A DNA stretch of 27,005 nt from a virus. The stretch is from the IMG/VR virus record IMGVR_UViG_3300031622_000015, positions 1-27,005 of that record. One strand, given 5' to 3'. This document shows positions 3,426 through 25,152 of this stretch, piece after piece (the stretch's first letter is position 1; the number at the start of each line of letters is the position of its first letter). The translations under genes and the position numbers were made by a program. The notes beneath the pieces were generated by a model that was given only the letters and a program-made list of their open reading frames with translations, had not been told where the DNA came from and ran no database searches.

Positions 3426-4175
3426 TTATGGAGTTGAAGCAGCAGGTATAACACTGAAGCTCTTTGATTTACAAAGTACTGTCATACCAGCACTAAAATC
3501 TCCTAGGTTCGTTCGTGCTGGAGGTGTTATGATTGTTTGGCCTCCAGTTGAACTATTAAATGAATTAGGGTCAACCGGGTCGGATCTAATTTGCCCATCT
3601 GTTTTAGAGTTATAAGCACATTTCCAATAAAACCCGAAAGAATTTGATGCTGGAGACGCCCCTGAACCGTGAACATTCGTAACTGTTACATAATACGTAC
3701 TATCGGGAAAGCTTCCTGGAGAGCCGGCGCTGCCGGTGCCGCCGATGGTGAAGACCGATGAACTAGTGCTCTGAGCGACCTGCGAACCCCCTTTAGCGGT
3801 AAATACTGTAACAGTAAAACTACCACCCCCACTGCTATCCACACTACCAAATAAAGGGGTTATTCTAATACCACCATTATCATTCCTGCCATACCGTTCA
3901 TAAGTTTCGTTTCTTATTGATATAGTACACCCAAAAATAGCTGAGCCTTTAAATTCAGACCATTTAACGTTTGTATACGCTCCTTTAACCATTGCCGGGG
4001 TTACTGCATAAGTTTCGAACCACCTTTTTAAACCAACCGGACCCGAATTTGCTTTATTTTGAGAATAAGTACCGCCACCGCTTTCATTAAATTTTATGTT
4101 GACCATAAGGTTTAAGCTAGTATTAGCACCACTAGCGCTTCCTATTCCAACTGTATTTCTTATATAACCGGGCAT
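3426..4175 (-). CDS. Gly/Ser/Thr-rich presumed virion (tail-fibre-like) protein
   Basis: A 249-aa protein rich in Gly, Ser, Thr and Asn with beta-strand patterning (FTVTVFTAKGGSQVAQSTSS; STYYVTVTNVHGSG), typical in composition of phage fibre or decoration proteins; no specific family is recognised. Cys residues are few (about 83, 186 and 235). It starts with an ATG placed 5 nt after a late box (AATAAATA, 4181-4188), so it is the first gene of a late transcript running into the two downstream genes. A patch at 3721-3780 (residues about 132-152, Gly/Ser linker) is about 67 percent GC by direct count, far above its neighbours. That may mean a recombined segment, as is common in adsorption proteins. 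Confidence 0.65.
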   Translation of the reverse strand: MPGYIRNTVGIGSASGANTSLNLMVNIKFNESGGGTYSQNKANSGPVGLKRWFETYAVTPAMVKGAYTNVKWSEFKGSAIFGCTISIRNETYERYGRNDNGGIRITPLFGSVDSSGGGSFTVTVFTAKGGSQVAQSTSSSVFTIGGTGSAGSPGSFPDSTYYVTVTNVHGSGASPASNSFGFYWKCAYNSKTDGQIRSDPVDPNSFNSSTGGQTIITPPARTNLGDFSAGMTVLCKSKSFSVIPAASTP

Positions 4176-4189: not shown

Positions 4190-4462
4190 CTATTTCTTCT
4201 TATTCCAGTCAACTCTCTTAGAACTTTTCTTTTTATACATTTTACCCTTTATTTTCTTACATGCAGCTTTAGTTGGTCTACATGCTGGATAACTACCTCC
4301 TGATTTTTTTGACTTTCTTCCGCAAGGTCCTCCAGTCTTACAATTTATCCAACCGCTAAATTTTTTACCCGTCTTAGGATCTTTACCACCGCGTTTAAAC
4401 CATTGATGGAGACTATCACTAGCTTCAATCAAATAATGGTCAACTAGATCATCAAATTTCAT
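4190..4462 (-). CDS. Small basic Cys-containing protein with capsid-targeting-like leader
   Basis: A 90-aa, very basic protein. Residues 1-13 (MKFDDLVDHYLIE) form a leader ending in L-I-E, the type of site cut by T4-like prohead protease, followed by the body: WFKRGGKDPKTGKKFSGW, a Cys cluster (INCKTGGPCGRK ... YPACRPTKAACKK) and a lysine tail. Four to five Cys in C-x5-C and C-x6-C arrangements could bind zinc. Similar small basic proteins are widespread in marine T4-like phages without known function. Inference: it is packaged in the head and binds DNA, perhaps helping neutralise or condense it. The gene overlaps the upstream 53-aa gene by one base (TAATG) and belongs to the same late operon. 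The final RVDWNKKK resembles a motif in the oxygenase. Confidence 0.75.
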   Translation of the reverse strand: MKFDDLVDHYLIEASDSLHQWFKRGGKDPKTGKKFSGWINCKTGGPCGRKSKKSGGSYPACRPTKAACKKIKGKMYKKKSSKRVDWNKKK

Positions 4463-4623
4463 TATTTACCAGCTTTACGCATTTTATTAGAATGCAATTT
4501 ATCGCCTGATTTTTTTGCTGCTTTATAAGCTTTACTACCTTTTCTTGCAGATCTCTTACCAGACTTTCTCTTTTTATTAATGTTAGCCCATAAGCTTTCT
4601 AATATTGTATCGAATTTATTCAT
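4462..4623 (-). CDS. 53-aa very basic small protein with capsid-targeting-like leader
   Basis: Small gene found by reading between its neighbours. It encodes 53 aa starting MNKFDTILESLW; I-L-E at residues 7-9 fits the prohead-protease site seen in its neighbours. The remainder is about 40 percent Lys+Arg (KKRKSGKRSARKGSKAYK ...). The ATG overlaps the end of the upstream gene (ATGA, 4 nt) and its TAA overlaps the ATG of the next (TAATG), which is strong evidence of a real translationally coupled gene. Composition suggests a nucleic-acid-binding, histone- or protamine-like peptide. No homologue is named. Confidence 0.75.
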   Translation of the reverse strand: MNKFDTILESLWANINKKRKSGKRSARKGSKAYKAAKKSGDKLHSNKMRKAGK

Positions 4624-4991
4624 TTCTTTTTCCAAATTTTACCTTTACGGCATCTTACCATTGCTCCTGATTTATATGCTGAAGTTTTTTTACCATATAC
4701 ACTATCAGCTTTTCTTTTACATCTATCTTCACCATCTTCTGCAGGGGGTAAACTATCAATATAAAAGTCACCTTCATGGTAGAGATTACCATCTTCTCGA
4801 TAATGTAAATGAGTATTAATTCTTACACCATTATCAAGGGTAATAACGTCGTACTTTTTATTGTGATCGACAACTTTACCTTTTGATGTGGAGTTTGTTG
4901 TACCACCACCGGATGTATCTTTTGTTGCATATACTATATTTTTACCAATATAGTTTGACGCCTCTTCATAATATGTTTTAAATGTCTTCAT
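4620..4991 (-). CDS. Small basic protein with capsid-targeting-like leader
   Basis: A 123-aa protein. The leader MKTFKTYYEE closely resembles the known start of T4 internal protein III (MKTYQEFIAE) and would be cut after Y-E-E. The middle (residues 15-75) has a short beta-barrel-like stretch (GKVVDHNKKYDVITLDNG) suggestive of an SH3-like or KOW-like fold. The C-terminal part has two Cys in a basic context (DRCKRKADSVYGKKTSAYK, then AMVRCRKGKIWKKK), a module I recognise from many small marine T4-like phage proteins of unknown function. Lys-rich overall. It lies in a compact late operon with the basic proteins on either side. Likely a packaged DNA-binding or head protein; the function is unproven. 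Confidence 0.75.
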   Translation of the reverse strand: MKTFKTYYEEASNYIGKNIVYATKDTSGGGTTNSTSKGKVVDHNKKYDVITLDNGVRINTHLHYREDGNLYHEGDFYIDSLPPAEDGEDRCKRKADSVYGKKTSAYKSGAMVRCRKGKIWKKK

Positions 4992-4997
4992 AATAAA

Positions 4998-5312
4998 TTA
5001 CCATTTTTTGCATGACCAGTAGCCTGCTGTTGTTCTATCCTTCTTTTGATCGCATTTATGACGTGCTCTGAAAGATCTACGAGCTGCTGGATTAGATTTG
5101 CGTATTCTCATTGTTTTCCTTTTAGCAGATGTACCGCCATGTCCAAAATTAACCTTCTTCACATTACCAGTCTTAGGATTTTTTACATACACCTTAAACT
5201 TCTTAACATCACCTCTTGTAGGTTTATTAAGAGTTACTTTTCTGCCTTTATATTCTGCGTCTTCGCTGGCGACTGCTTCCATAAGAGAAGAGTATAGTTT
5301 ATCGAATGTCAT
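4998..5312 (-). CDS. Basic Cys-containing conserved marine-phage protein with capsid-targeting-like leader
   Basis: A 104-aa highly basic protein. Leader MTFDKLYSSLME (L-M-E at 10-12), then a body ending in KVNFGHGGTSAKRKTMRIRK and SFRARHKCDQKKDRTTAGYW followed by SCKKW. I recognise this SFRARHxC...TTAGYWSC tail from small proteins of T4-like cyanophages, where it has no assigned function; a C/H arrangement (H, C, C) could hold a metal. It is the first gene of a late operon: AATAAATA at 5318-5325, then 5 nt, then the ATG. It is divergent from, and shares promoter DNA with, the gene at 5336. Probably packaged in the capsid and bound to DNA. Confidence 0.75.
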   Translation of the reverse strand: MTFDKLYSSLMEAVASEDAEYKGRKVTLNKPTRGDVKKFKVYVKNPKTGNVKKVNFGHGGTSAKRKTMRIRKSNPAARRSFRARHKCDQKKDRTTAGYWSCKKW

Positions 5313-5335: not shown

Positions 5336-5866
5336 ATGAATAACGAAGCTAATCTAATATTTGAACAATATAAATCAGTAAATGAAAATATGGGTATGGG
5401 ACCCATGGTCGGTAAAATGGTAAATGTACCCGGACCAGGTTCACAAAATACAGCTTCTAAAGTAGTTGTATTAAAGCTTAATAATAAAAAAGATTCACCT
5501 TGTGAAGATGGAGAAGCAGTATTTATCCAAGCCGGTGATCAAAATGAATGTGAAAGTGGTTGTGATGATTGTAGTGATGATGATTATGATGGTGAATTAG
5601 ATATGGCAAGAGCTGAATTACTTAAAGCAGCAGAGTATGCAACTAAGTTATTTAACCATCTTGAAAATTTAGATAATTTAGAAGGTTGGACAGCTTCTAA
5701 AATAACAAAAGCTGCTGACTACCTATCATCAGTCTATCATGCATTAGAGTATGATAATTTAGATGCTGATGTAGAAGACGAGCAAGACCCTGATGTGGAT
5801 AGAGTAGAAGTTGACGAGTTAGACGATACTGAAACCGCTAAAAATACTGGTTACGCTGGAGCTTAA
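5336..5866 (+). CDS. Acidic late protein with capsid-targeting-like leader
   Basis: A 176-aa, strongly acidic protein not recognised. I start it at the ATG at 5336 rather than the in-frame ATG at 5306 because 5336 is exactly 5 nt after a late -10 box and because the protein then begins MNNEANLIFEQYKSVNE, with an I-F-E prohead-cleavage-like site at 8-10. Then follow a Gly/Met-rich stretch, a short segment with four Cys (PCEDGEAVF; NECESGCDDCSDDD, residues about 50-80), and a helical region (90-150) ending in an Asp/Glu tail. The CxxxCxxC cluster could bind metal. As an acidic partner beside several very basic packaged proteins it might balance charge or chaperone them; this is inference. It ends 4 nt into the convergent gene. 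Confidence 0.7.
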   Translation: MNNEANLIFEQYKSVNENMGMGPMVGKMVNVPGPGSQNTASKVVVLKLNNKKDSPCEDGEAVFIQAGDQNECESGCDDCSDDDYDGELDMARAELLKAAEYATKLFNHLENLDNLEGWTASKITKAADYLSSVYHALEYDNLDADVEDEQDPDVDRVEVDELDDTETAKNTGYAGA

Positions 5867-7839
5867 ATCAATTTATTGTCGAAGATTCTTTTAACTTCTT
5901 CATCTAATGAACCGTAAAGATCTATAATAAGATCTCTCCTACCTTGTTCGTCTGATTTTTTATATAATTCTCTAATTTGAGATGCACTTCTTATATCTTT
6001 ACCAAGAATATTAAAATCCATAGTAGGTAGAGTTGCAATATAACCGTGTTTATCTCCACTAGTCATTTTTTTAGATTTATCATACGGTTGAAAGTAACTT
6101 GGTTCACCATTTTTCTTTAAACCGAATTTAAAACGTGGTTTATCCCCTTCCATATCTTTTTCTGAAACAGCAAATATAACTTTAGTTTTATCTAAATCAT
6201 ATCTTTCTGTTATCTCATTTGCCAAGTATGGGTTAGCAGTCATTTCAACAAATTTTGGATCAATACCAGCACTTTGTATCATTCTTTGCTTTTCATCAAA
6301 TTCAAATGGTGAATTAGTATCATTTGTTTTACCGGACGTTGAAATAAATACATCTGCGGTCGGAAATTGTTGTTTCAATTTATCATAAACAGATGCATGT
6401 CCTTTATGAAAAGGGTGAAATCTACCTGGATATATAACTACTGTTTTTGTTAAATCTTCGGCTTCTTCAAATTCTTTTAACATCTTATACATTTCACCAA
6501 ATGAAGCTCTTTTTTGTAATCTCATACCTTCACCTGTATTAAAAATGGGTGGATTACTAATATATGATTCTTGATTTTCTGGAGACGTTGGTTTACCGGT
6601 ACCAAAATTAGCGCGGCTAAATTCTTCCCTGTCTACCATTTTAGTAATTTCAGCACCATCAGCAGTAACTTTTGATAGAGCAAATCCTTCCGGGGCAGTT
6701 GTTTGCCAGTTATTAGGACTTTCTTCAAGATATGTACCTAGCAGATCATTTTGTGTTATTTCATTAAAAATTTTAATTAAATTATTTTTTAAATTAGCAA
6801 TAATTTTAGTAATTTCGAAAGCATTTTTAATAGAAGGTTTAAGTGCTTTGAGAGATTTTAATGTTGATTTCATTTTCTCTTGCTTTTTAGCCTTACCTTT
6901 TTCACTTTTAAGTTTTTCTATCTCTTTGGTAAATCTACCACCAATATAGTTAACATATTCTTCAGTAGATATCGATGTATCTTCTAAGAATCTACCTGAT
7001 CTTATTTCTGAATTAATATAAGATTTAAGAGTACTTGTATAATCATCTAGAGAACTAAAATCTACCTTATCGGCTAATTTAAGAAGTTGTTTCTTTTTAA
7101 CCTTTACATCTTTTAAAAGTAATTTACCGAAAGATGATTTACTATTTTTAGGTTTATTTGCTAATACATTAAAAACAAACACTGTATTAGATGGTGAAAA
7201 TTCATCTGTTGAAGAAGTATATTTTTTAACTTTCAATATACCATTTTGTACCATATATTCGATATGAACTGCAACGCCTATCTTAGATCTTGCAATTTGA
7301 TCTCCATATGGGCTATTTTCAGTAACCGCATACTTAATAGTATTGGGGGTAAAGGTTAAAAATTTATTTTCATTTTTAACACCATCAATTGTTTCTGGTG
7401 CTTCATACACTTTCATTTGAGGATCAAACATATAATCCATTTGATATATACCTTTAAGATTTAAAGATGGTAAATACCGTAAAGCTAATATTAATTTATC
7501 TGCTAAACCACCTGTACCATGATTTTCGATAATATCTTCTTCGGAGTAGTTAATTTTTGGGTTTTTAGCAAAAGCTGATTTACTAGCTACGAAAAATTTA
7601 TTATTAGTATCAACACCTGCAACGATAGCAGGCGCGCCGTCAAACTTAGTAGATATTTTATAATCCGATTCGTCTACAAAATATGATATAGAAGATTCTA
7701 TTTGGTTAATAGCTTCTATAACACCTTGCTTACCTTTATTAAGTATATTTTCTTCTAAATGGTCAATATGCTTAACTGCTCCATCGATTGCATCAAAGAA
7801 TTCTAATAGTACTGTATGGTGTTGTTTAAATGTTTTCAT
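5863..7839 (-). CDS. Ligase-like (DUF6267-type) / cytidylyltransferase-like fusion with capsid-targeting-like leader
   Basis: A 658-aa two-domain protein. Residues 1-13 (MKTFKQHHTVLLE) form a T4-like capsid-targeting leader ending L-L-E. The N-terminal domain (about 55-330) has STKFDGAPAI, a K-x-D-G motif (Lys65) like motif I of covalent nucleotidyltransferases (DNA/RNA ligases, capping enzymes), with a later VKK (203-206) in the place of motif V; this matches the phage family I know as DUF6267. A Lys-rich helical linker follows. The C-terminal domain (about 465-658) begins TVVIYPGRFHPFHKGHAS, with the HxGH nucleotidylyltransferase motif (His478, His481), and carries DIRSASQIRELY (615-626), like the ISSTxIR motif of NMN/pantetheine adenylyltransferases. 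Inference: a nucleotidyl-transferring enzyme carried in the head and delivered with the DNA. The substrate is unknown. The candidate late box ATAAAATA lies at 7845-7852. Confidence 0.75.
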   Translation of the reverse strand: MKTFKQHHTVLLEFFDAIDGAVKHIDHLEENILNKGKQGVIEAINQIESSISYFVDESDYKISTKFDGAPAIVAGVDTNNKFFVASKSAFAKNPKINYSEEDIIENHGTGGLADKLILALRYLPSLNLKGIYQMDYMFDPQMKVYEAPETIDGVKNENKFLTFTPNTIKYAVTENSPYGDQIARSKIGVAVHIEYMVQNGILKVKKYTSSTDEFSPSNTVFVFNVLANKPKNSKSSFGKLLLKDVKVKKKQLLKLADKVDFSSLDDYTSTLKSYINSEIRSGRFLEDTSISTEEYVNYIGGRFTKEIEKLKSEKGKAKKQEKMKSTLKSLKALKPSIKNAFEITKIIANLKNNLIKIFNEITQNDLLGTYLEESPNNWQTTAPEGFALSKVTADGAEITKMVDREEFSRANFGTGKPTSPENQESYISNPPIFNTGEGMRLQKRASFGEMYKMLKEFEEAEDLTKTVVIYPGRFHPFHKGHASVYDKLKQQFPTADVFISTSGKTNDTNSPFEFDEKQRMIQSAGIDPKFVEMTANPYLANEITERYDLDKTKVIFAVSEKDMEGDKPRFKFGLKKNGEPSYFQPYDKSKKMTSGDKHGYIATLPTMDFNILGKDIRSASQIRELYKKSDEQGRRDLIIDLYGSLDEEVKRIFDNKLI

Positions 7840-7844
7840 TTTTT

Positions 7845-7852
7845 TATTTTAT
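7845..7852 (-). promoter_or_regulatory. Possible late promoter box (ATAAAATA)
   Basis: Minus-strand ATAAAATA, 5 nt of A, then the ATG at 7839. It overlaps the stop codon of the upstream gene. It deviates from TATAAATA more than the others, so confidence is lower. Confidence 0.4.
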
Positions 7853-9060
7853 TTGACTGTTAAACCTACTGCCCCGTAGAAATCGTCAGATTCTACCTTT
7901 GAAACGATAAAATGATCTACAATAATATTATACATATCATTAAATGTCGTTGAATCATCTACTTTAAAAGCATATGAATCTAAATTATCATCACAAGCCC
8001 AGAGTGTATTAAATTTATGTCCGTCAGAATGCCAATAATATAATATTTGGAGAGCTCCAATAATATTTTTTATATTATATTCATCCTTCACGAGATTTAA
8101 AATATCTTTTTCTGATAACCATTCCTCAAAAGAAGATATTACCTCATCATTAACTTGTTTTTTGGGTGTACCATACACAAGTAAATCAAAAATTGCATTT
8201 TCTTTTATAGATTTATCTTTTTCACTATCTAAGACCACTTGTATCATATGTACTAATGTTTCATATGCTTTTCTACCCTTCTCACCGGAGGTTGAAAAAG
8301 GTAACTTAAATTTTTCCGAAGTCGATTTAATATTGTTTAAAGCAACATCTGGATCACCGTGACCCATTCTAGCCTGTGGCCCTTTTACTTCAATCAATTC
8401 CCCTTTTCTTTCTAGATCGCCCTTTTTTGCCTTTTTTGTATCTGATAAAAATATAATACCGCCTAATTCTGGCCAACCTACACTAACCGAGCCTTTACCG
8501 GGCTGCTTACTGATAGCATAAACAAGAGACCTTGAATGCTCACCTATATATTTTGATGGATGTTCTTTAATTACAAAATCTACCCAATTAAATTCTGTAA
8601 CTAATGGTAAATCTGCTTGTACTTTATTAGTATTTAAATCATTTACAATATCTAGAACTTCTTGAAAGGCATCTTCTCCATCCATATCAACGAAATTCAT
8701 AATATGATTTTTAATATTAGATACAGCATCTCTATCTCCTTGTCCAAGTTTTGAAGAATATTTACCTATGGTTAATAATCTAGCAATACCGTCATCTATT
8801 TTTTGCTGTAGTTTTGGTTCATTTGCAGGTAAATATGCCTTCCCAGCCCCTTCTTTTTCGCTACGACCCTTCGGTATACGAAATTCTGCACCTGCAGCTC
8901 TCTCTAAATCTCCATCATCGAAGGGTAACCCATACTGTACTTCATCAGTAGGCATCTTTGATCTTAGATCTTCACCAATTACCCGTTGTCTTGGTAATTT
9001 AGATACTTTCTTACCAGCAGCTTCCTGTAAGTATGTGTCTGTTAGCGATTTCCAACTCAT
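7849..9060 (-). CDS. Late protein with capsid-targeting-like leader and possible PD-(D/E)XK nuclease core
   Basis: A 403-aa protein. Leader MSWKSLTDTYLQEAAGKK (L-Q-E at 11-13). The centre has GGIIFLSDTKKAKKGDLERK followed by GELIEVKGPQARMGHG: Asp215, then Glu224-x-Lys226, the spacing expected of a PD-(D/E)XK nuclease core (D-x8-E-x-K), with a hydrophobic strand before each. Several phage structural proteins have a similar GD...E(L/V)KG segment, so the motif may mark a structural relative rather than an active nuclease. The C-terminal 150 residues are mixed helix/strand without a motif I know. The gene overlaps the upstream proline-rich gene by 4 nt (ATGA) and sits 9 nt before the ligase-like fusion gene, inside the packaged-protein operon. 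Confidence 0.65.
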   Translation of the reverse strand: MSWKSLTDTYLQEAAGKKVSKLPRQRVIGEDLRSKMPTDEVQYGLPFDDGDLERAAGAEFRIPKGRSEKEGAGKAYLPANEPKLQQKIDDGIARLLTIGKYSSKLGQGDRDAVSNIKNHIMNFVDMDGEDAFQEVLDIVNDLNTNKVQADLPLVTEFNWVDFVIKEHPSKYIGEHSRSLVYAISKQPGKGSVSVGWPELGGIIFLSDTKKAKKGDLERKGELIEVKGPQARMGHGDPDVALNNIKSTSEKFKLPFSTSGEKGRKAYETLVHMIQVVLDSEKDKSIKENAIFDLLVYGTPKKQVNDEVISSFEEWLSEKDILNLVKDEYNIKNIIGALQILYYWHSDGHKFNTLWACDDNLDSYAFKVDDSTTFNDMYNIIVDHFIVSKVESDDFYGAVGLTVK

Positions 9061-9365
9061 GTTTCGATGTCAATATCTTGTGAATATTTTTTCATTATAT
9101 TAATAAGAGAGGTTAATGATTCTTTTGCGTTAGTTTCATTAATATCTGCTAATATACTAATTTGATCAATATCACTAGCTTCTATTTCTGTAACTAAAGC
9201 TTTTTTAATTAATCTCACCAGTAAGACTTCACCTTCAGGTGATAATTGAGTTACTTCTGGTACCGGTGCTGGCTCTTCAACAGGAGGAGCAACTGGCTCT
9301 TCAACAGGTACTTCAGCTTCATCTTGTTCTAATATTGTGTTATATTGTTCTAGGAATTTTTTCAT
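9057..9365 (-). CDS. Pro/Glu-rich small late protein with capsid-targeting-like leader
   Basis: A 102-aa acidic protein. Leader MKKFLEQYNTILEQDEAE (I-L-E at 11-13), then a Pro/Glu/Val linker (VPVEEPVAPPVEEPAPVPE) encoded in part by a 24-nt-period direct repeat, then a compact helical C-terminal domain (about 42-102: LLVRLIKKALVTEIEASDID ... LTSLINIMKKYSQDIDIE). It overlaps the upstream gene by one base (TAATG) and the downstream gene by 4 nt, so it is translationally coupled. Not recognised beyond this; probably a packaged or scaffold-associated small protein. Confidence 0.7.
   Translation of the reverse strand: MKKFLEQYNTILEQDEAEVPVEEPVAPPVEEPAPVPEVTQLSPEGEVLLVRLIKKALVTEIEASDIDQISILADINETNAKESLTSLINIMKKYSQDIDIET
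9269..9308. repeat. Short direct repeat in Pro/Glu linker
   Basis: CTGGCTCTTCAACAGG occurs at 9269-9284 and 9293-9308 (24-nt period). It encodes the repeated E-E-P-V/A-P residues of the linker and probably arose by slippage. Confidence 0.75.
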
Positions 9366-10180
9366 TATATTTTAATTGTTTTAATTTTGTTAGCTATCTT
9401 TTTCATAACATCCCCATATGCTTTATTAATTTCTTTTTGCGGATCTTTTTGAAATGATCTTCTCGTAGGATCATTAGCCAAGGTTTGAGCTACTTTAATA
9501 GCATCTCGTTGACCTTTATCTAAAAATGGTTGTTCTTGATCTTCTATACTAGTACCTCTCATAGAATTAATTTTATTATACATATCTTCGAGTTCTTTAA
9601 ATTCATCACCACCATCGTTAACCAATTCACCTTGTTCGATAGGTCTATTATGGTAATCGTCTACTACTACATCTTCTTTATTATAAAGAGCTCTTCTTGC
9701 TTCAGCATATTCACTGTTATTTCTAAAAGCATTCATTTTTTGTCTTAATTCTGACTTTTTTTCAGGATCTTTTTCTGTCATTATTAGACGAAACAAATCT
9801 TTACGTTCTTTTTCTCTTTCAAGGTGACCTTGATAGTCATGCTTCTTTTTAAACTCATCAGTCTCAGCTGCTCCTGAACGTAGGTTTGTAATATCATGAT
9901 TAACATAATCACCAAACTTAGTTAAAAATCTACTTAATAGTACTTCAGGTGAATCTGGAGAGTTCTTATTACCACCTATACCGTGAACGTTCATTGAATA
10001 TAATCTAGCAAAACTTCCAGAATCTAAAATATCTTTTCTAGACTTACCTACAAGACTTCTTAAAAAATCACCAAATGATTTGCCTGATTTCATTTGTACC
10101 ATTATTTCGTTGTCTGATGAGCCGATTGGCTGACCATATTCACGTAAAAACTGATTGGCCGTTTGATTAAATTTGTCCAT
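9365..10180 (-). CDS. Helical late protein with capsid-targeting-like leader
   Basis: A 271-aa, charged, mainly helical protein not recognised. It starts MDKFNQTANQFLREYGQP, with L-R-E at 12-14 as a prohead-protease-like site. Residues 30-110 include KSFGDFLRSLVGKSRKD and FARLYSMNVHGIGG; 120-175 is a strongly charged helix (LEREKERKDLFRLIMTEKD) likely to form a coiled coil; the C-terminus is basic (MKKIANKIKTIKI). It heads the operon that continues into the Pro/Glu-rich protein, the nuclease-like protein and the ligase-like fusion, with a good late box (GATAAATA) 5 nt before its ATG. It could be an internal head or scaffold-like protein. Confidence 0.7.
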   Translation of the reverse strand: MDKFNQTANQFLREYGQPIGSSDNEIMVQMKSGKSFGDFLRSLVGKSRKDILDSGSFARLYSMNVHGIGGNKNSPDSPEVLLSRFLTKFGDYVNHDITNLRSGAAETDEFKKKHDYQGHLEREKERKDLFRLIMTEKDPEKKSELRQKMNAFRNNSEYAEARRALYNKEDVVVDDYHNRPIEQGELVNDGGDEFKELEDMYNKINSMRGTSIEDQEQPFLDKGQRDAIKVAQTLANDPTRRSFQKDPQKEINKAYGDVMKKIANKIKTIKI

Positions 10181-10185
10181 ATTAT

Positions 10186-10193
10186 TATTTATC
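10186..10193 (-). promoter_or_regulatory. Late promoter -10 box (GATAAATA)
   Basis: Minus-strand GATAAATA, then ATAAT, then the ATG at 10180. It overlaps the end of the upstream gene. Confidence 0.6.
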
Positions 10194-11178: not shown

Positions 11179-11186
11179 TATTTACT
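11179..11186 (-). promoter_or_regulatory. Late promoter -10 box (AGTAAATA)
   Basis: Minus-strand AGTAAATA, then TCTAA, then the ATG at 11173. It overlaps the stop of the upstream gene. Weaker match to TATAAATA. Confidence 0.5.
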
Positions 11187-11451
11187 TTTTATTCTTGGAT
11201 TTTCTAGTTTTTCTCTTCTTCTTACCCACTTTACCGTTTCTGGAATAAGTTACACCTAGAGCTGTTGGTCTTCTAAAATCACCAGGAGCATAAGCATCTG
11301 TACCTGGAGTACCGCTAACTGTTGTACCATACCCAGCTGCAGCAGTAGGTCCTAAAGCCCCACCACCGACTGTATTTTCATCTTCCTCTGTTGTATTTTT
11401 CCTTTTTAGTATTTTTTTAAATGCTTTTTCAAATAAAGTTGTTTTCTTCAT
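11182..11451 (-). CDS. Small Gly-rich basic-tailed protein with capsid-targeting-like leader
   Basis: An 89-aa protein. It begins MKKTTLFEKAFKKILKRK, with an L-F-E site at 6-8. A Gly/Ala/Thr-rich middle follows (GGGALGPTAAAGYGTT), then TDAYAPGDFRRPTALG, a segment (DAYAPGDxRxPxxLG) I recognise from small proteins of marine T4-like phages, and a Lys/Arg tail (KKKRKTRKSKNKK). The basic tail suggests DNA binding. It is the first minus-strand gene left of the early block. Its promoter TATAAATACTATT is identical to the T4 late consensus and ends directly at the ATG. Confidence 0.7.
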   Translation of the reverse strand: MKKTTLFEKAFKKILKRKNTTEEDENTVGGGALGPTAAAGYGTTVSGTPGTDAYAPGDFRRPTALGVTYSRNGKVGKKKRKTRKSKNKK

Positions 11452-11466
11452 AATAGTATTTATAAT
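11439..11466 (+). promoter_or_regulatory. Sigma70-type promoter for uvsY
   Basis: TTGTTT (11439-11444), 16 nt, TATAAT (11461-11466), 6 nt, GTG start at 11473. The predicted transcription start is at or next to the start codon. Confidence 0.65.
11457..11464 (-). promoter_or_regulatory. Late promoter, perfect T4 consensus (TATAAATA)
   Basis: Minus-strand TATAAATACTATT followed at once by the ATG at 11451. This is the T4 late consensus, with the expected +1 on the A of ATG. It overlaps the opposing sigma70 -10 box of uvsY. Confidence 0.85.
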
Positions 11467-22038: not shown

Positions 22039-23142
22039 ATGAGTAAAGAAATTGATGATGTATTATCTATAATTGATAAATCTAACCCGTACGCCTCGTT
22101 TTTAAATGAGAGCGCTCTAAGTAATATAGATGGTTGGATAGATACTGGCTCTATGGTACTAAATGGTATTGTATCAGGTTCATTATTTGGTGGTATACCA
22201 AAAAATAGAATGACTCTATTAGCTGGTCCTAGTATGACCGGTAAGAGTTTTATATTGCAAAAGATTTTAGCCAATGCTCAGAAAGAAGGATTAACTCCAG
22301 TTATTTTTGATAGTGAAAATGCTATTGATAAAGATGGAGCAGAAGCATTAGGTCTGGATGTTAGTAAGGTAAAATATGTACCCGTTTTTAGTATTGAAGA
22401 ATGTCGTAATACTATTTTTGATTTCTTAACTAAAGTAAAGGAAAAGGGTCAAGAAGGTAAGTTTATTATTGCTATTGATTCTTTAGGTAATATGGAAAGT
22501 CAATTGCAGATTAATCGTCAGATAAAAGGTAATGTAAGTGCTGATATGGGTAGTAGAGCTAAAGCTATGAAATCTTTATTACGGACCTTAACTCAGTTAT
22601 CCGGATTAACTAAAACTACTATTCTAGCTACTAATCATATCTATGAAGACCCGTCAGCGATGTTTCCTTCGTTGGTAAAGGCAATGCCAGGTGGTACTGC
22701 TACTGTTTATCTTCCATCAGTTACTATTCAATTAGCTCGTAAGCCAGTTAAAGAAGATAAGAATACAGATGGTAAGTTAGCTGTAGGTCAGAAGAATTAT
22801 TCAGGCGTTATACTTAGAGCTTTAACTGTTAAAAATAGATTTGTTAAGCAATACTTGCAAGGTGAAATGTATCTATCTTTTGATAAAGGTTTAAACAAGT
22901 ATTATGGTTTATTAGATCTTGCAGTAGGTTTAGGAGCAGTAATACAAACTGGTTCAACTTATACTTTACCAGATGGTAAGAAACTTGGTTATTATAGTAA
23001 ATGGAAAGATGATACAGAATTATGGGACAATACTATTATACCTGTCGTGGAAGAAAAAATTAAACAAGAATGGAAATACAGTAATAAATCTGATGAAGAT
23101 GAAATTATACCAGACGAAGTAAACGATGAAGAAGAAGAATAA
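22039..23142 (+). CDS. uvsX: UvsX RecA-like recombinase
   Basis: Strand-exchange recombinase, 367 aa (T4 UvsX is 391). Seen: Walker A GPSMTGKS (63-70, Lys69), Walker B FIIAIDSLGN (142-151, Asp147), the ATNHIY segment, PGGTATVYLPS (a RecA-like L2/core region), and an acidic C-terminal tail (DEDEIIPDEVNDEEEE) that usually modulates DNA binding. Known role: filament formation on ssDNA with help from UvsY, strand invasion and recombination-dependent replication. It has its own promoter with a predicted leaderless start. The queC ATG overlaps its end by 17 nt. Confidence 0.93.
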   Translation: MSKEIDDVLSIIDKSNPYASFLNESALSNIDGWIDTGSMVLNGIVSGSLFGGIPKNRMTLLAGPSMTGKSFILQKILANAQKEGLTPVIFDSENAIDKDGAEALGLDVSKVKYVPVFSIEECRNTIFDFLTKVKEKGQEGKFIIAIDSLGNMESQLQINRQIKGNVSADMGSRAKAMKSLLRTLTQLSGLTKTTILATNHIYEDPSAMFPSLVKAMPGGTATVYLPSVTIQLARKPVKEDKNTDGKLAVGQKNYSGVILRALTVKNRFVKQYLQGEMYLSFDKGLNKYYGLLDLAVGLGAVIQTGSTYTLPDGKKLGYYSKWKDDTELWDNTIIPVVEEKIKQEWKYSNKSDEDEIIPDEVNDEEEE

Positions 23143-23875
23143 AATAGTTATAACCTTATCTGGTGGAATGGATTCATCTGTTTTACTCTATAAGGCAGCC
23201 GAACAGTATAATGAAGTGCATACTGTAACATTTAATTACGGTCAACGTCATAGTAAAGAGTTAGAAGCAGCTGAAAAGCAATTAGCTAACGCTAAATTTA
23301 ATTATACAAATGTTAAGTTTACTAATAAATTATTAGATGTTACTTATATTAAGGATATAGCTGATACATCTTCTCTTACTAATGATAATATAGATACACC
23401 TGACGTAAAAGATATAATGGGTGAGGCTCAACCTAAATCATATGTACCATTCCGTAATTTAATGTTTTTAAGCATATTGTTATCATATGCAGAAAAAATG
23501 GAAGCTGAGGAAGTATGGTATGGTGCAGCAGAAGCTGATAGTCTTGCTGGTTATTGGGATGGTTCAGTGCAATTTGTCGATAAAATGAATCAGATTTGTC
23601 TATTAAACCGTGAAGTAGATGTAAGGGTAAGAGCTCCTCTTCTTAAGATGAGTAAAAAAGAGATTATTTTAAATGGTGTTGAGCTTGGAGTCAATTTTAC
23701 TGATACATATACATGTTATTCTGGTGAATATCCATGTGATGCTAATAGTGCAAGTAGTGCTCTTAGGTTGAAAGGTTTTTTAGACGCAGGATTACAAGAT
23801 CCGTTACGTTATAAACAGCAAGATAAGTTAGATTCGGTTTATAGAGATAATAATTGTAAATCTATAATATATTAA
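23126..23875 (+). CDS. queC: QueC-family 7-cyano-7-deazaguanine synthase, degenerate zinc site
   Basis: QueC-type PP-loop ATPase of 249 aa. Known reaction: CDG + NH3 + ATP to preQ0, a precursor of queuosine/archaeosine and of 7-deazaguanine bases in some phage DNAs. Seen: PP-loop LSGGMDSS (11-18), FNYGQRHSKEL (36-46), YVPFRNLMFLS (106-116), GAAEADSLAGYWD (133-145), CYSG and a C-terminal LRLKGFLDAGLQDPLRY. The usual four-Cys zinc site is incomplete: Cys197 and Cys204 remain, but the next two positions (CDANSASSALR, normally CGxCxxCxLR) are Asn and Ser. It overlaps uvsX by 17 nt and is convergent with, and overlaps by 4 nt, the late gene beyond. Possibly works with the nearby glutamine amidotransferase. 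Confidence 0.85.
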   Translation: MKKKNKIVITLSGGMDSSVLLYKAAEQYNEVHTVTFNYGQRHSKELEAAEKQLANAKFNYTNVKFTNKLLDVTYIKDIADTSSLTNDNIDTPDVKDIMGEAQPKSYVPFRNLMFLSILLSYAEKMEAEEVWYGAAEADSLAGYWDGSVQFVDKMNQICLLNREVDVRVRAPLLKMSKKEIILNGVELGVNFTDTYTCYSGEYPCDANSASSALRLKGFLDAGLQDPLRYKQQDKLDSVYRDNNCKSIIY

Positions 23876-25152
23876 TAACCGTGTCTATTCATTCTTTCTT
23901 GAGAATGAGCATTTTGCATTTTTTGCCTGTGTTGATTGATCAAGTAGTTATTAATATCTTGTTGAGACATTGCAACTTGCTCTTCTTCTTCAGATTCTGA
24001 CGGTTTCTTTTTTCTAAGCTTACCTGTTATTGGGCATCTTTCTTCTCCTTCATCAGGTGCCTCATCAGGTTCCATTTCACCCATTTGATCATCATCAGGT
24101 GCCTCATCAGGTTCATATTGGTCATTATCGTCTTGTTCGTCTTTAGGTAAAATCTTTTTCATTAAATGACTACCAACAGCACCAGCTGCCCCGACTGCAA
24201 TCCCAGTTCCTAAGATAGGTAATATATTATCTTCTGCAGGTTCGTCTTCATCTTCATAATGATCTGCAACTGCTCTTGCATGAGATTGACCAGCCCTTTC
24301 TTGCTCTTTCTTCATTGCTTTAGCAATAGCTACCCCTCTTGATCTTTCATATGAAGAAATCTCACCATCATCATTTAAATCTGATTTTTCTTTATCAATT
24401 TCTTCACCTTCTGGAACACCAACACCATCTTGACGGCTCATATAACTAACAGCGTCGATTGCATTTGACATACCATCTTCTTCACCTTCTGGAAAATCAG
24501 CAACTAATTTTTCTCTATTACCCATTTCTATTTCTCCACCAAATTTATCAACTTTTTCTGTTTCACTTGGTTTAACAATAACAACTGAAACAATATCATC
24601 TTTAGATATATCATCTAAATTAAGTTTTTGACCTTTAAAAGAATTAAGAGTAACTCTATATTTTAAACCATCGCTTACTACTGTATATAAATCATTTTCA
24701 CCAACACCACCTTCAGATTTTAAGGTGGTATCCCCTCCAAGATTTAATTGTAAAGTTTCAAAACCTGTATCACCTTTCTTAAGACCTTCTTTTGCTGCGC
24801 CTCTTGCTCTTGTTGTAATTTGAACATCTGGTCTTGTAGCTAATGGTTTAGAAACATTGGCCATAATATTAATAGCATTTTGAATATTATCATCAGTTAA
24901 ATCTTCTAAATCTAATTCAGGATTTTCTTTTTGTAAGTATCTAATTACCTTGGTAGCAAAGTATCTAGGGGTCATTGTACCTTTAAGATCTCTAATATCT
25001 TCCATACCCATTAGTTTTGCTCTTAACGGATCAGCAATTTTCTTACCTCTTGCTTCTTGGACCAAATCATCGTCCCCTTCATGCATACCTTGCATATATT
25101 GAGAAGCACTTTCGTTAATAATTTTTTTGTTACCCCAGTTATGTAAATTCAT
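23872..25152 (-). CDS. Acidic late protein with EF-hand-like loop, Gly-rich segment and capsid-targeting-like leader
   Basis: A 426-aa acidic protein not assigned to a family. N-terminus MNLHNWGNKKIINESASQ, with an I-N-E site at 12-14 and a second V-Q-E at 31-33 followed by ARGKK, like LQEAAGKK in the 9060-7849 product. Residues 258-269 (DLNDDGEISSYE) are a full EF-hand calcium-loop pattern followed by RSRGVAIAKAM; such loops occur in other marine T4-like phage proteins. Residues 309-329 (NILPILGTGIAVGAAGAVG) form a Gly/Ala-rich hydrophobic stretch that could insert in a membrane. An acidic, partly repeated segment follows (EPDEAPD twice). First and only gene of its late transcript (AATAAATA box). 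Probably packaged in the head or part of the virion. Confidence 0.7.
   Translation of the reverse strand: MNLHNWGNKKIINESASQYMQGMHEGDDDLVQEARGKKIADPLRAKLMGMEDIRDLKGTMTPRYFATKVIRYLQKENPELDLEDLTDDNIQNAINIMANVSKPLATRPDVQITTRARGAAKEGLKKGDTGFETLQLNLGGDTTLKSEGGVGENDLYTVVSDGLKYRVTLNSFKGQKLNLDDISKDDIVSVVIVKPSETEKVDKFGGEIEMGNREKLVADFPEGEEDGMSNAIDAVSYMSRQDGVGVPEGEEIDKEKSDLNDDGEISSYERSRGVAIAKAMKKEQERAGQSHARAVADHYEDEDEPAEDNILPILGTGIAVGAAGAVGSHLMKKILPKDEQDDNDQYEPDEAPDDDQMGEMEPDEAPDEGEERCPITGKLRKKKPSESEEEEQVAMSQQDINNYLINQHRQKMQNAHSQERMNRHGY
24051..24114. repeat. 22-nt direct repeat in acidic linker
   Basis: A perfect 22-nt unit occurs at 24051-24072 and 24093-24114 (42-nt period); it contains CATCAGG twice. 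It encodes the repeated EPDEAPD segment on the minus strand. Confidence 0.8.

Follow-up and report, generated by a model that had tools for sequence, protein, structure and literature searches.

A viral DUF6267-nucleotidyltransferase fusion as candidate two-enzyme head cargo

The 27,005-nucleotide stretch analysed here (the window), a 27 kb linear fragment from IMG/VR record IMGVR_UViG_3300031622_000015, carries on its minus strand an open reading frame (ORF), 5863-7839, for a 658-residue protein in which a DUF6267 domain (PF19782) is joined to a nucleotidyltransferase (NT) domain behind a leader resembling phage T4 capsid targeting sequences. The protein may be a late-expressed, capsid-targeted cargo of two enzymes, an RNA-ligase-like half and an adenylyltransferase half, a reading to which we give about an even chance. 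The 185 kb relative G001 stood in for a full genome.

A first-pass annotation, made from the sequence alone, had the position of the ORF and its residue numbers right but gave no strand; K65-F-D-G68, H475-P-F-H478-K-G-H481, D615-IRSASQIR-623 and the leader MKTFKQHHTVLLE all lie at the residues that it named. These motifs exceed chance: the Pfam matches are over cut-off (DUF6267 at residues 23-416, E=6.8e-77, 259.8 bits against a curated cut-off of 27; CTP_transf_like at residues 469-559, E=2.3e-8), the motif residues are essentially invariant among 145-148 distinct sequences, and the leader is kept in the lineage designated FKQ. PHROGs assigns the first part of the protein to phrog_455, a group of unknown function, and the second part to two groups of cytidyltransferases. 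Predicted folds and conserved motifs together bear out the proposal of two nucleotidyl-transfer domains in one protein. The linker between them is disordered in the full-length AlphaFold2 model, whose predicted template modelling score (pTM) is 0.49, and for these reasons no statement is made on docking of the domains. The features of the gene are as follows (pLDDT, predicted local distance difference test).

5863..7839, minus: DUF6267-NT fusion gene, 658 aa (ORF, Pfam)
7801..7839, minus: capsid-targeting-like leader, residues 1-13, MKTFKQHHTVLLE (conservation, scoring matrix)
6592..7773, minus: DUF6267 domain, residues 23-416, predicted ligase-type nucleotidyltransferase fold (Pfam, structure model)
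7636..7647, minus: motif I, K65-F-D-G68 (conservation)
7579..7581, minus: K87, candidate motif Ia (invariant, spacing like that of T4 Rnl1)
7435..7437, minus: D135 in strand 131-138, candidate motif III (invariant, model)
6685..6690, minus: E384-G385, motif IV (invariant)
6640..6642, minus: K400, first motif V lysine, the second K-x-K position being V402 (invariant)
6451..6600, minus: disordered linker, residues 414-463 (pLDDT < 50)
5866..6447, minus: HIGH-type NT domain, residues 465-658 (profiles, structure model)
6397..6417, minus: HxGH signature, H475-PFHKG-H481 (sequence)
5971..5997, minus: second NT signature, D615-IRSASQIR-623, ISSTxxR-like (read by eye)

The DUF6267 half has a predicted ligase-type fold

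Structure prediction, which the first-pass annotation had put forward as a check, yielded an RNA-ligase-like model for the first domain and a HIGH-type NT model for the second. The AlphaFold2 model of DUF6267, built from 41 relatives, has a mean pLDDT of 79.5 and a pTM of 0.69. When it was compared with other structures by VIA-align, rows 1-31 were RNA ligases (one, 3qwu, is titled putative ATP-dependent DNA ligase), headed by the Naegleria RNA ligase at Z 8.6 with a root-mean-square deviation of 3.5 over 180 residues; Trl1 and REL1 followed at 7.5, T4 Rnl2 at 7.2 and T4 Rnl1 at 6.8, the first non-ligase row stood at Z 6.2, and DNA ligases scored 5.5-5.9. The ligase-type reading is drawn from the agreement of these rows with one another and not from any single score.

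The invariant residues of DUF6267 follow the I-Ia-III-IV-V order of the ligase motifs. K65, D67, G68, K87, Q133, D135, E384, G385, K400, V402 and R404 are essentially unchanged among about 148 distinct sequences. K65 of motif I, which ends predicted strand 61-65, is kept in 145/145 covered sequences, and D67 and G68 in all but one. K87 (148/148) lies 22 residues further on, compared with 20 in T4 Rnl1 (K99-K119). Candidate motif III is D135 (148/148), placed without a residue-level structural alignment and an Asp where Glu is expected. E384-G385 of motif IV (147/147) stands just before or at the start of strand 385-392, and K400 of motif V (146/146) within strand 395-402; their spacing is 16 in the window, ~12 in cyanophages and 13 in Rnl1 (E227-K240). 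Between motifs III and IV the window protein has a helical insert, residues 236-362, that is far shorter in S-SM1.

Several results count against this assignment. The VIA-align scores are individually borderline, the tool itself warning that unrelated models often reach Z 7-8. Foldseek gave no significant match (best E 0.17), although most of its list consists of structures of DNA, tRNA and RNA-editing ligases and of NAD-ligase adenylation domains. The K-x-K of motif V is absent, V402 taking the place of the second lysine in 146/146 sequences ahead of an invariant R404 (K-x-V-x-R). HHalign comparison of DUF6267 with T4 Rnl1 and Rnl2 alignments was negative, but the test has no power, since Rnl1 and Rnl2, the positive control pair, failed to match each other as well. 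Nothing in the sequence establishes that the substrate is RNA. Searches at the sequence level gave no match of the fusion protein to the RNA ligase families PF09414 and PF09511 or the DNA ligase family PF01068 at E <= 1, and a search of the PDB with the DUF6267 profile found no meaningful relative among solved proteins.

On balance it is quite probable that DUF6267 is a ligase-type nucleotidyltransferase. With the Naegleria RNA ligase, T4 Rnl2, Rnl1 and fungal Trl1 it shares the predicted fold and the motif order KxDG / D / EG / K, but it differs from them in the want of a sequence-level match, in K-x-V-x-R at motif V and in the helical insert; Rnl1 and Rnl2 moreover have a domain after motif V, and none like theirs is seen in the model. 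Because the second motif V lysine is replaced and because of the insert, the protein is said here to have the same predicted fold and probably to work like a ligase, and membership of a named ligase family (Rnl1/Rnl2) is not claimed.

Distribution, gene neighbourhood and the missing DNA ligase

DUF6267 (T4-GC71) occurs in 467 phage records, the majority of T4-like cyanophages, nearly all of which carry the family, together with HTVC008M, Melnitz and others; beyond marine cyanobacteria the hosts of some of these phages are Pelagibacter and Methylophilales. In P-TIM40, S-PM2, S-SM1 and S-SZBM1 the next gene downstream of it is T4-GC190, for a cytidyltransferase. Relatives of the window without the fusion have a separate NT gene after DUF6267, usually immediately after it, with a leader of its own, e.g. 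MKTFKQFFFEETGR or MKSFKQFILEQQGK. Since the two are adjacent genes elsewhere, the fusion joins two habitual neighbours. In the FKQ lineage the long, related leader sits on DUF6267 itself, inside a block of seven leader-type minus-strand genes.

Variations on this arrangement were also seen. In HTVC008M a Zeta-toxin/AAA_33-type P-loop kinase, gp129 (L066:7709-8371), lies between DUF6267 and NT. The relative G002 (the contig of L046) has an Rnl1-type and an Rnl2-type RNA ligase (165096-165668 and 174426-174920) besides DUF6267, the functions of which are therefore probably not redundant. In S-PM2 (NC_006820, L067:7986-9765) a frame change near L067:8497 interrupts DUF6267, and the second half of the gene is in frame with the cytidyltransferase ORF (annotated start later); the cause may be sequencing error, decay or frameshift. 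A general programmed frameshift in cyanophage DUF6267, considered because tblastn matches end near residue 195, was rejected: among the genomes read only S-PM2 is shifted, and P-TIM40 and S-SZBM1 are intact.

The strongest rival explanation, although an unlikely one, is that marine T4-like phages have in DUF6267 their missing nick-sealing ligase, active in intracellular replication or repair, and that the FKQ leader is a later addition for storage or delivery. The cyanophage gene is leaderless, is placed between gp41 and gp61 in the gp43-uvsX-gp41-gp61 region, and its product was not found in S-SZBM1 virions. Of the DUF6267-bearing marine T4-like phages, 0/7 and 0/5 (some of the five are fragments) matched the ATP-dependent DNA ligase family, and they likewise gave no NAD-dependent DNA ligase match, whereas T4, Konradin and Aes508 have the ATP-dependent enzyme. 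A review describes gp30 as absent from cyanomyoviruses and raises distant homologues as one possibility (PMC2984593). However, the model shows no oligonucleotide-binding (OB) domain, its structural neighbours are RNA ligases (Z 8.6) rather than DNA ligases (Z 5.9), host ligase can substitute, the gene of the window lineage stands in a late, leader-bearing block, and G002 has its Rnl1- and Rnl2-type ligases as well.

The C-terminal nucleotidyltransferase

The C-terminal half is, by profile and model, a HIGH-type nucleotidyltransferase that is more adenylyl- than cytidylyltransferase-like. Both signatures of the type are present (HxGH at 478-481, ISSTxxR-like at 617-623), and the domain passes the cut-offs of PF01467 (37.1 vs 21 bits) and of the generic NCBIfam model TIGR00125 (32.7 vs 27.7 bits). 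Its model (residues 464-658) matches phosphopantetheine adenylyltransferase (PPAT) at Z 10.9 and nicotinate mononucleotide (NaMN) adenylyltransferase at Z 10.6. Structure and curated models thus point to nicotinamide mononucleotide (NMN), NaMN and pantetheine adenylyltransferases, and the label "cytidylyltransferase" of the first-pass annotation was probably the wrong subtype, with the qualification that no specific model is over its cut-off; the NMN adenylyltransferase equivalogs (TIGR01527 and similar) reach 28.8 of 181.2 bits. The glycerol-phosphate/teichoic-acid cytidylyltransferase reading of the S-SZBM1 paper is not favoured by fold or curated models. NadM/NadR and CoaD/NadD adenylyltransferases share the fold and both signatures, the NT domain scoring below their family cut-offs, and NadM and NadR are two-domain fusions also, with a Nudix or kinase partner in place of the ligase-fold domain of the window protein. 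Either of two NT subtypes, GRFHPFHKGH and PGGYKPPTKGH, can stand behind the same DUF6267 half, as a fusion or as a gene of its own.

The protein could instead be a packaged cofactor enzyme in which an NMN adenylyltransferase-like NT remakes NAD+ after injection against NAD-depleting defences, with DUF6267 either modifying a host target with ATP or NAD+ or being secondary. The best specific curated models (NMN adenylyltransferases), the fold like that of NaMN adenylyltransferase and PPAT, the NadM/Nudix relatives in other phages and the argument that myoviruses often package NAD+-linked enzymes (PMC9503650) favour such a role. It is nevertheless rather improbable: the NT is far under the equivalog cut-off (28.8 vs 181 bits), a NadV/NAPRTase partner gene was not found in five relatives, and the two quite different NT subtypes replace each other behind DUF6267.

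Leader, late expression and packaging

The leader MKTFKQHHTVLLE, followed by FFDAIDGAV, is conserved across the FKQ lineage (91 FKQ-type loci, some of them repeats of one contig). With a position-specific scoring matrix (PSSM) built only from stand-alone NT leaders it scores 10.5, whereas the highest score of the 729 internal Met starts used as controls is 4.9. A relaxed leader rule fits 7/7 consecutive minus-strand genes between 4190 and 10180 (base rate in G001, 23/224), a count that is descriptive only because the rule was relaxed after these leaders had been seen. In T4, ipII and ipIII start MKTYQEFIAEA and Alt starts MELITELFDED, the latter being cut after ITE-6 (PMC5694885). The T4 internal proteins and Alt resemble the window protein in a short N-terminal leader, which in the window fits the relaxed rule, and in being late cargo, as the fusion probably is; a gp21-type prohead protease is found in 5/8 relatives searched (E down to 4e-36), the window fragment stopping short of that region. 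Alt is an ADP-ribosyltransferase, unlike the fusion, whose ejection is only proposed.

Late expression is suggested by NATAAATA about 13 nt before ATGs on the window minus strand, at 11464, 10193, 5325, 4188 and 25165, i.e. before genes 11182-11451, 9365-10180, 4998-5312, 3426-4175 and 23872-25152, respectively; similar spacing is seen in G001 before gp21- and gp22-type genes. By sequence these sites are late-promoter-like and may be T4-type late promoters with very short leaders. The window as a whole holds no more TATAAATA than chance would give, and the sites are informative only by their position directly before ATGs.

Homologues of the second domain have been detected in the virions of three phages: S-SM1 (PMC3037559), S-SZBM1 with 2 peptides (PMC9146016) and S-CREM2 with 3 peptides (PMC10665884). 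All three are leader-bearing, starting MKKFSAFLNEAE, MRFRQFIIEAV and MKNFSSFLTEAD, respectively; the S-SM2 NT starts MKSFFQFLSEAQ. This cyanophage virion cytidylyltransferase (T4-GC190; S-SM1, S-SZBM1_140, S-CREM2 gp154) is likewise a HIGH-type NT with a T4-like leader and adjoins DUF6267 in S-SM1 and S-SZBM1, but it is unfused, with the leader on NT and none on DUF6267. A leader rule written from T4 and NT leaders, and tested on two genome stretches of S-CREM2, marked 5/13 virion-detected and 0/29 other proteins (Fisher p=0.0015); among those marked are a virion-associated S-adenosylmethionine (SAM) hydrolase, an APH-like kinase and the NT.

Other evidence tells against packaging of the fusion. 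Judged as a short T4-type leader with an (L/I)xE end, the window leader fits the relaxed rule and fails the strict one, though its FKQ motif is conserved; it is 2-3 residues longer than that of T4, with Phe at P1', and by the same PSSM its G001 counterpart reaches no more than -1.5. The virion proteomes are those of phages outside the FKQ lineage, and the leaderless S-SZBM1 DUF6267 (start MAKNTHLEHLEDD) is missing from the virion proteome table of that phage, which is weak evidence because even the NT gave only 2 peptides.

The length of the leader, the unusual P1' Phe and the failed strict rule might mean that it is no targeting signal and that the fusion is an ordinary cytoplasmic late enzyme. 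The same leader type is, however, found on unrelated neighbours and on virion-detected enzymes, and this explanation appears very improbable. Still more so is a role confined to virion assembly, in which the protein would aid morphogenesis, as T4 gp63 does, and would not be an injected effector. T4 RnlA/gp63 is annotated as both RNA ligase and promoter of tail-fibre attachment, head-protein genes lie nearby in P-TIM40 and S-PM2, and NT is a cyanophage core gene; but near-invariant catalytic motifs are needless for a purely structural role. A phage RNA ligase that also acts in virion assembly, gp63 belongs to a family different from DUF6267 and is not known to be packaged by means of a leader. 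Leader block, late-promoter-like sites and the three proteomes with a second-domain homologue all point to the head, in keeping with the packaging that the first-pass annotation had supposed, and we infer that the fusion is likely to be packaged in the capsid.

A possible mechanism

If the fusion is two-enzyme head cargo, the leader would direct it into the prohead scaffold, where a gp21-type protease may clip the leader; the enzyme would reach the cell together with the DNA and be active from time zero, ahead of early phage gene expression. K65 of DUF6267 would attack ATP (or NAD+) to form lysyl-AMP and then transfer the AMP to a 5'-phosphate end. The likeliest acceptor is RNA, e.g. a tRNA cleaved by an anticodon nuclease of the host. 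From ATP, and perhaps an NMN-like substrate, the C-terminal HIGH-type adenylyltransferase would synthesise NAD+ or another dinucleotide, or else a related activated cofactor. RNA-end repair right after injection is favoured because the structural neighbours are RNA ligases and because of the HTVC008M kinase between DUF6267 and NT.

A tighter coupling of the halves is improbable: the ligase-fold domain of an injected enzyme would AMPylate host RNA ends or proteins from NAD+ (or ATP) in the first minutes, and the fused adenylyltransferase would regenerate the dinucleotide donor. Were this true, the protein would belong to a hitherto undescribed class of packaged enzymes, and DUF6267 would be an effector widespread among marine phages and able to travel in the capsid.

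Neighbouring genes and other observations

The remaining leader-type genes of the block and the promoter-like site at its head are these.

10186..10193, minus: late-promoter-like GATAAATA, immediately ahead of the start codon of gene 9365-10180, which probably heads the transcription unit that includes the fusion gene
9365..10180, minus: leader-like gene, MDKFNQTANQFLRE then Y (relaxed rule)
9057..9365, minus: leader-bearing gene, MKKFLEQYNTILE then Q (relaxed rule)
7849..9060, minus: gene upstream of the fusion, leader MSWKSLTDTYLQE then A; no Pfam match; EVKG, by eye PD-(D/E)xK-like
4998..5312, minus: leader-bearing gene, MTFDKLYSSLME then A; phrog_7595 (relaxed rule)
4620..4991, minus: leader-bearing gene, MKTFKTYYEE then A, closest to the T4 leader (PSSM, relaxed rule)
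4190..4462, minus: leader-bearing gene, MKFDDLVDHYLIE then A (relaxed rule)

HTVC008M gp131, from the same neighbourhood, looks homologous to gene 4998..5312. In several lineages the gene upstream of DUF6267 or NT is by eye PD-(D/E)xK-like (ELIEVKG, TDFTIGNNKISLKSG), i.e. at 7849-9060 of the window, L066:4914-5972 (HTVC008M), L065:5157-5936 and L299:4412-5731; it is leader-bearing in the window and in HTVC008M and gave no Pfam match where tested. A further leader-like late gene, 23872-25152 on the minus strand (MNLHNWGNKKIINE then SASQ), lies amid plus-strand replication genes. Pelagiphage-type DUF6267 (L241 and other loci) starts MYNDLLVEDKNT or MELLNEDKNT, like the Alt start MELITE|LFD, and by this analogy may be cleaved and packaged also. 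The leader noted for Pelagibacter phage HTVC008M is MYNDLLVE|D. In S-CREM2 gp12 (L313:4205-6814), a Cas9-like virion protein, a leader-like LRFASFMAEAAV at about residues 17-28 suggests, from sequence, either that the start was mis-called or that this packaged protein carries a targeting signal internally. Adjoining uvsX, the plus-strand gene 23126-23875 of the window is QueC-like by eye (SGGMDSSVLL), and more queuosine-like genes were noted by eye in relatives L034 and L050, a hint that the DNA may be modified in the window lineage.

Significance

Packaged phage enzymes and a virion NT are already known, and the proposal of a new type of early takeover factor must be narrowed accordingly: packaging of NT in T4-like cyanophages had been reported, and what is new is the ligase-like nature of DUF6267 and its leader. 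No mention of DUF6267 was found in the literature searched, and as far as that literature shows the ligase-type reading of the family, the leader on DUF6267 in the FKQ lineage and the fusion itself are all new. A ligase-type fold gives DUF6267, a family so far without an assigned function, a concrete, testable biochemistry, and it bears on the open question of whether cyanomyoviruses without gp30 carry an unrecognised distant ligase. Cyanomyoviruses are also without alt, modA and modB (PMC2984593). The leader analysis suggests how head cargo might be predicted in marine T4-like phages and so, where Alt is lacking, which enzymes are the first to reach the host cell.

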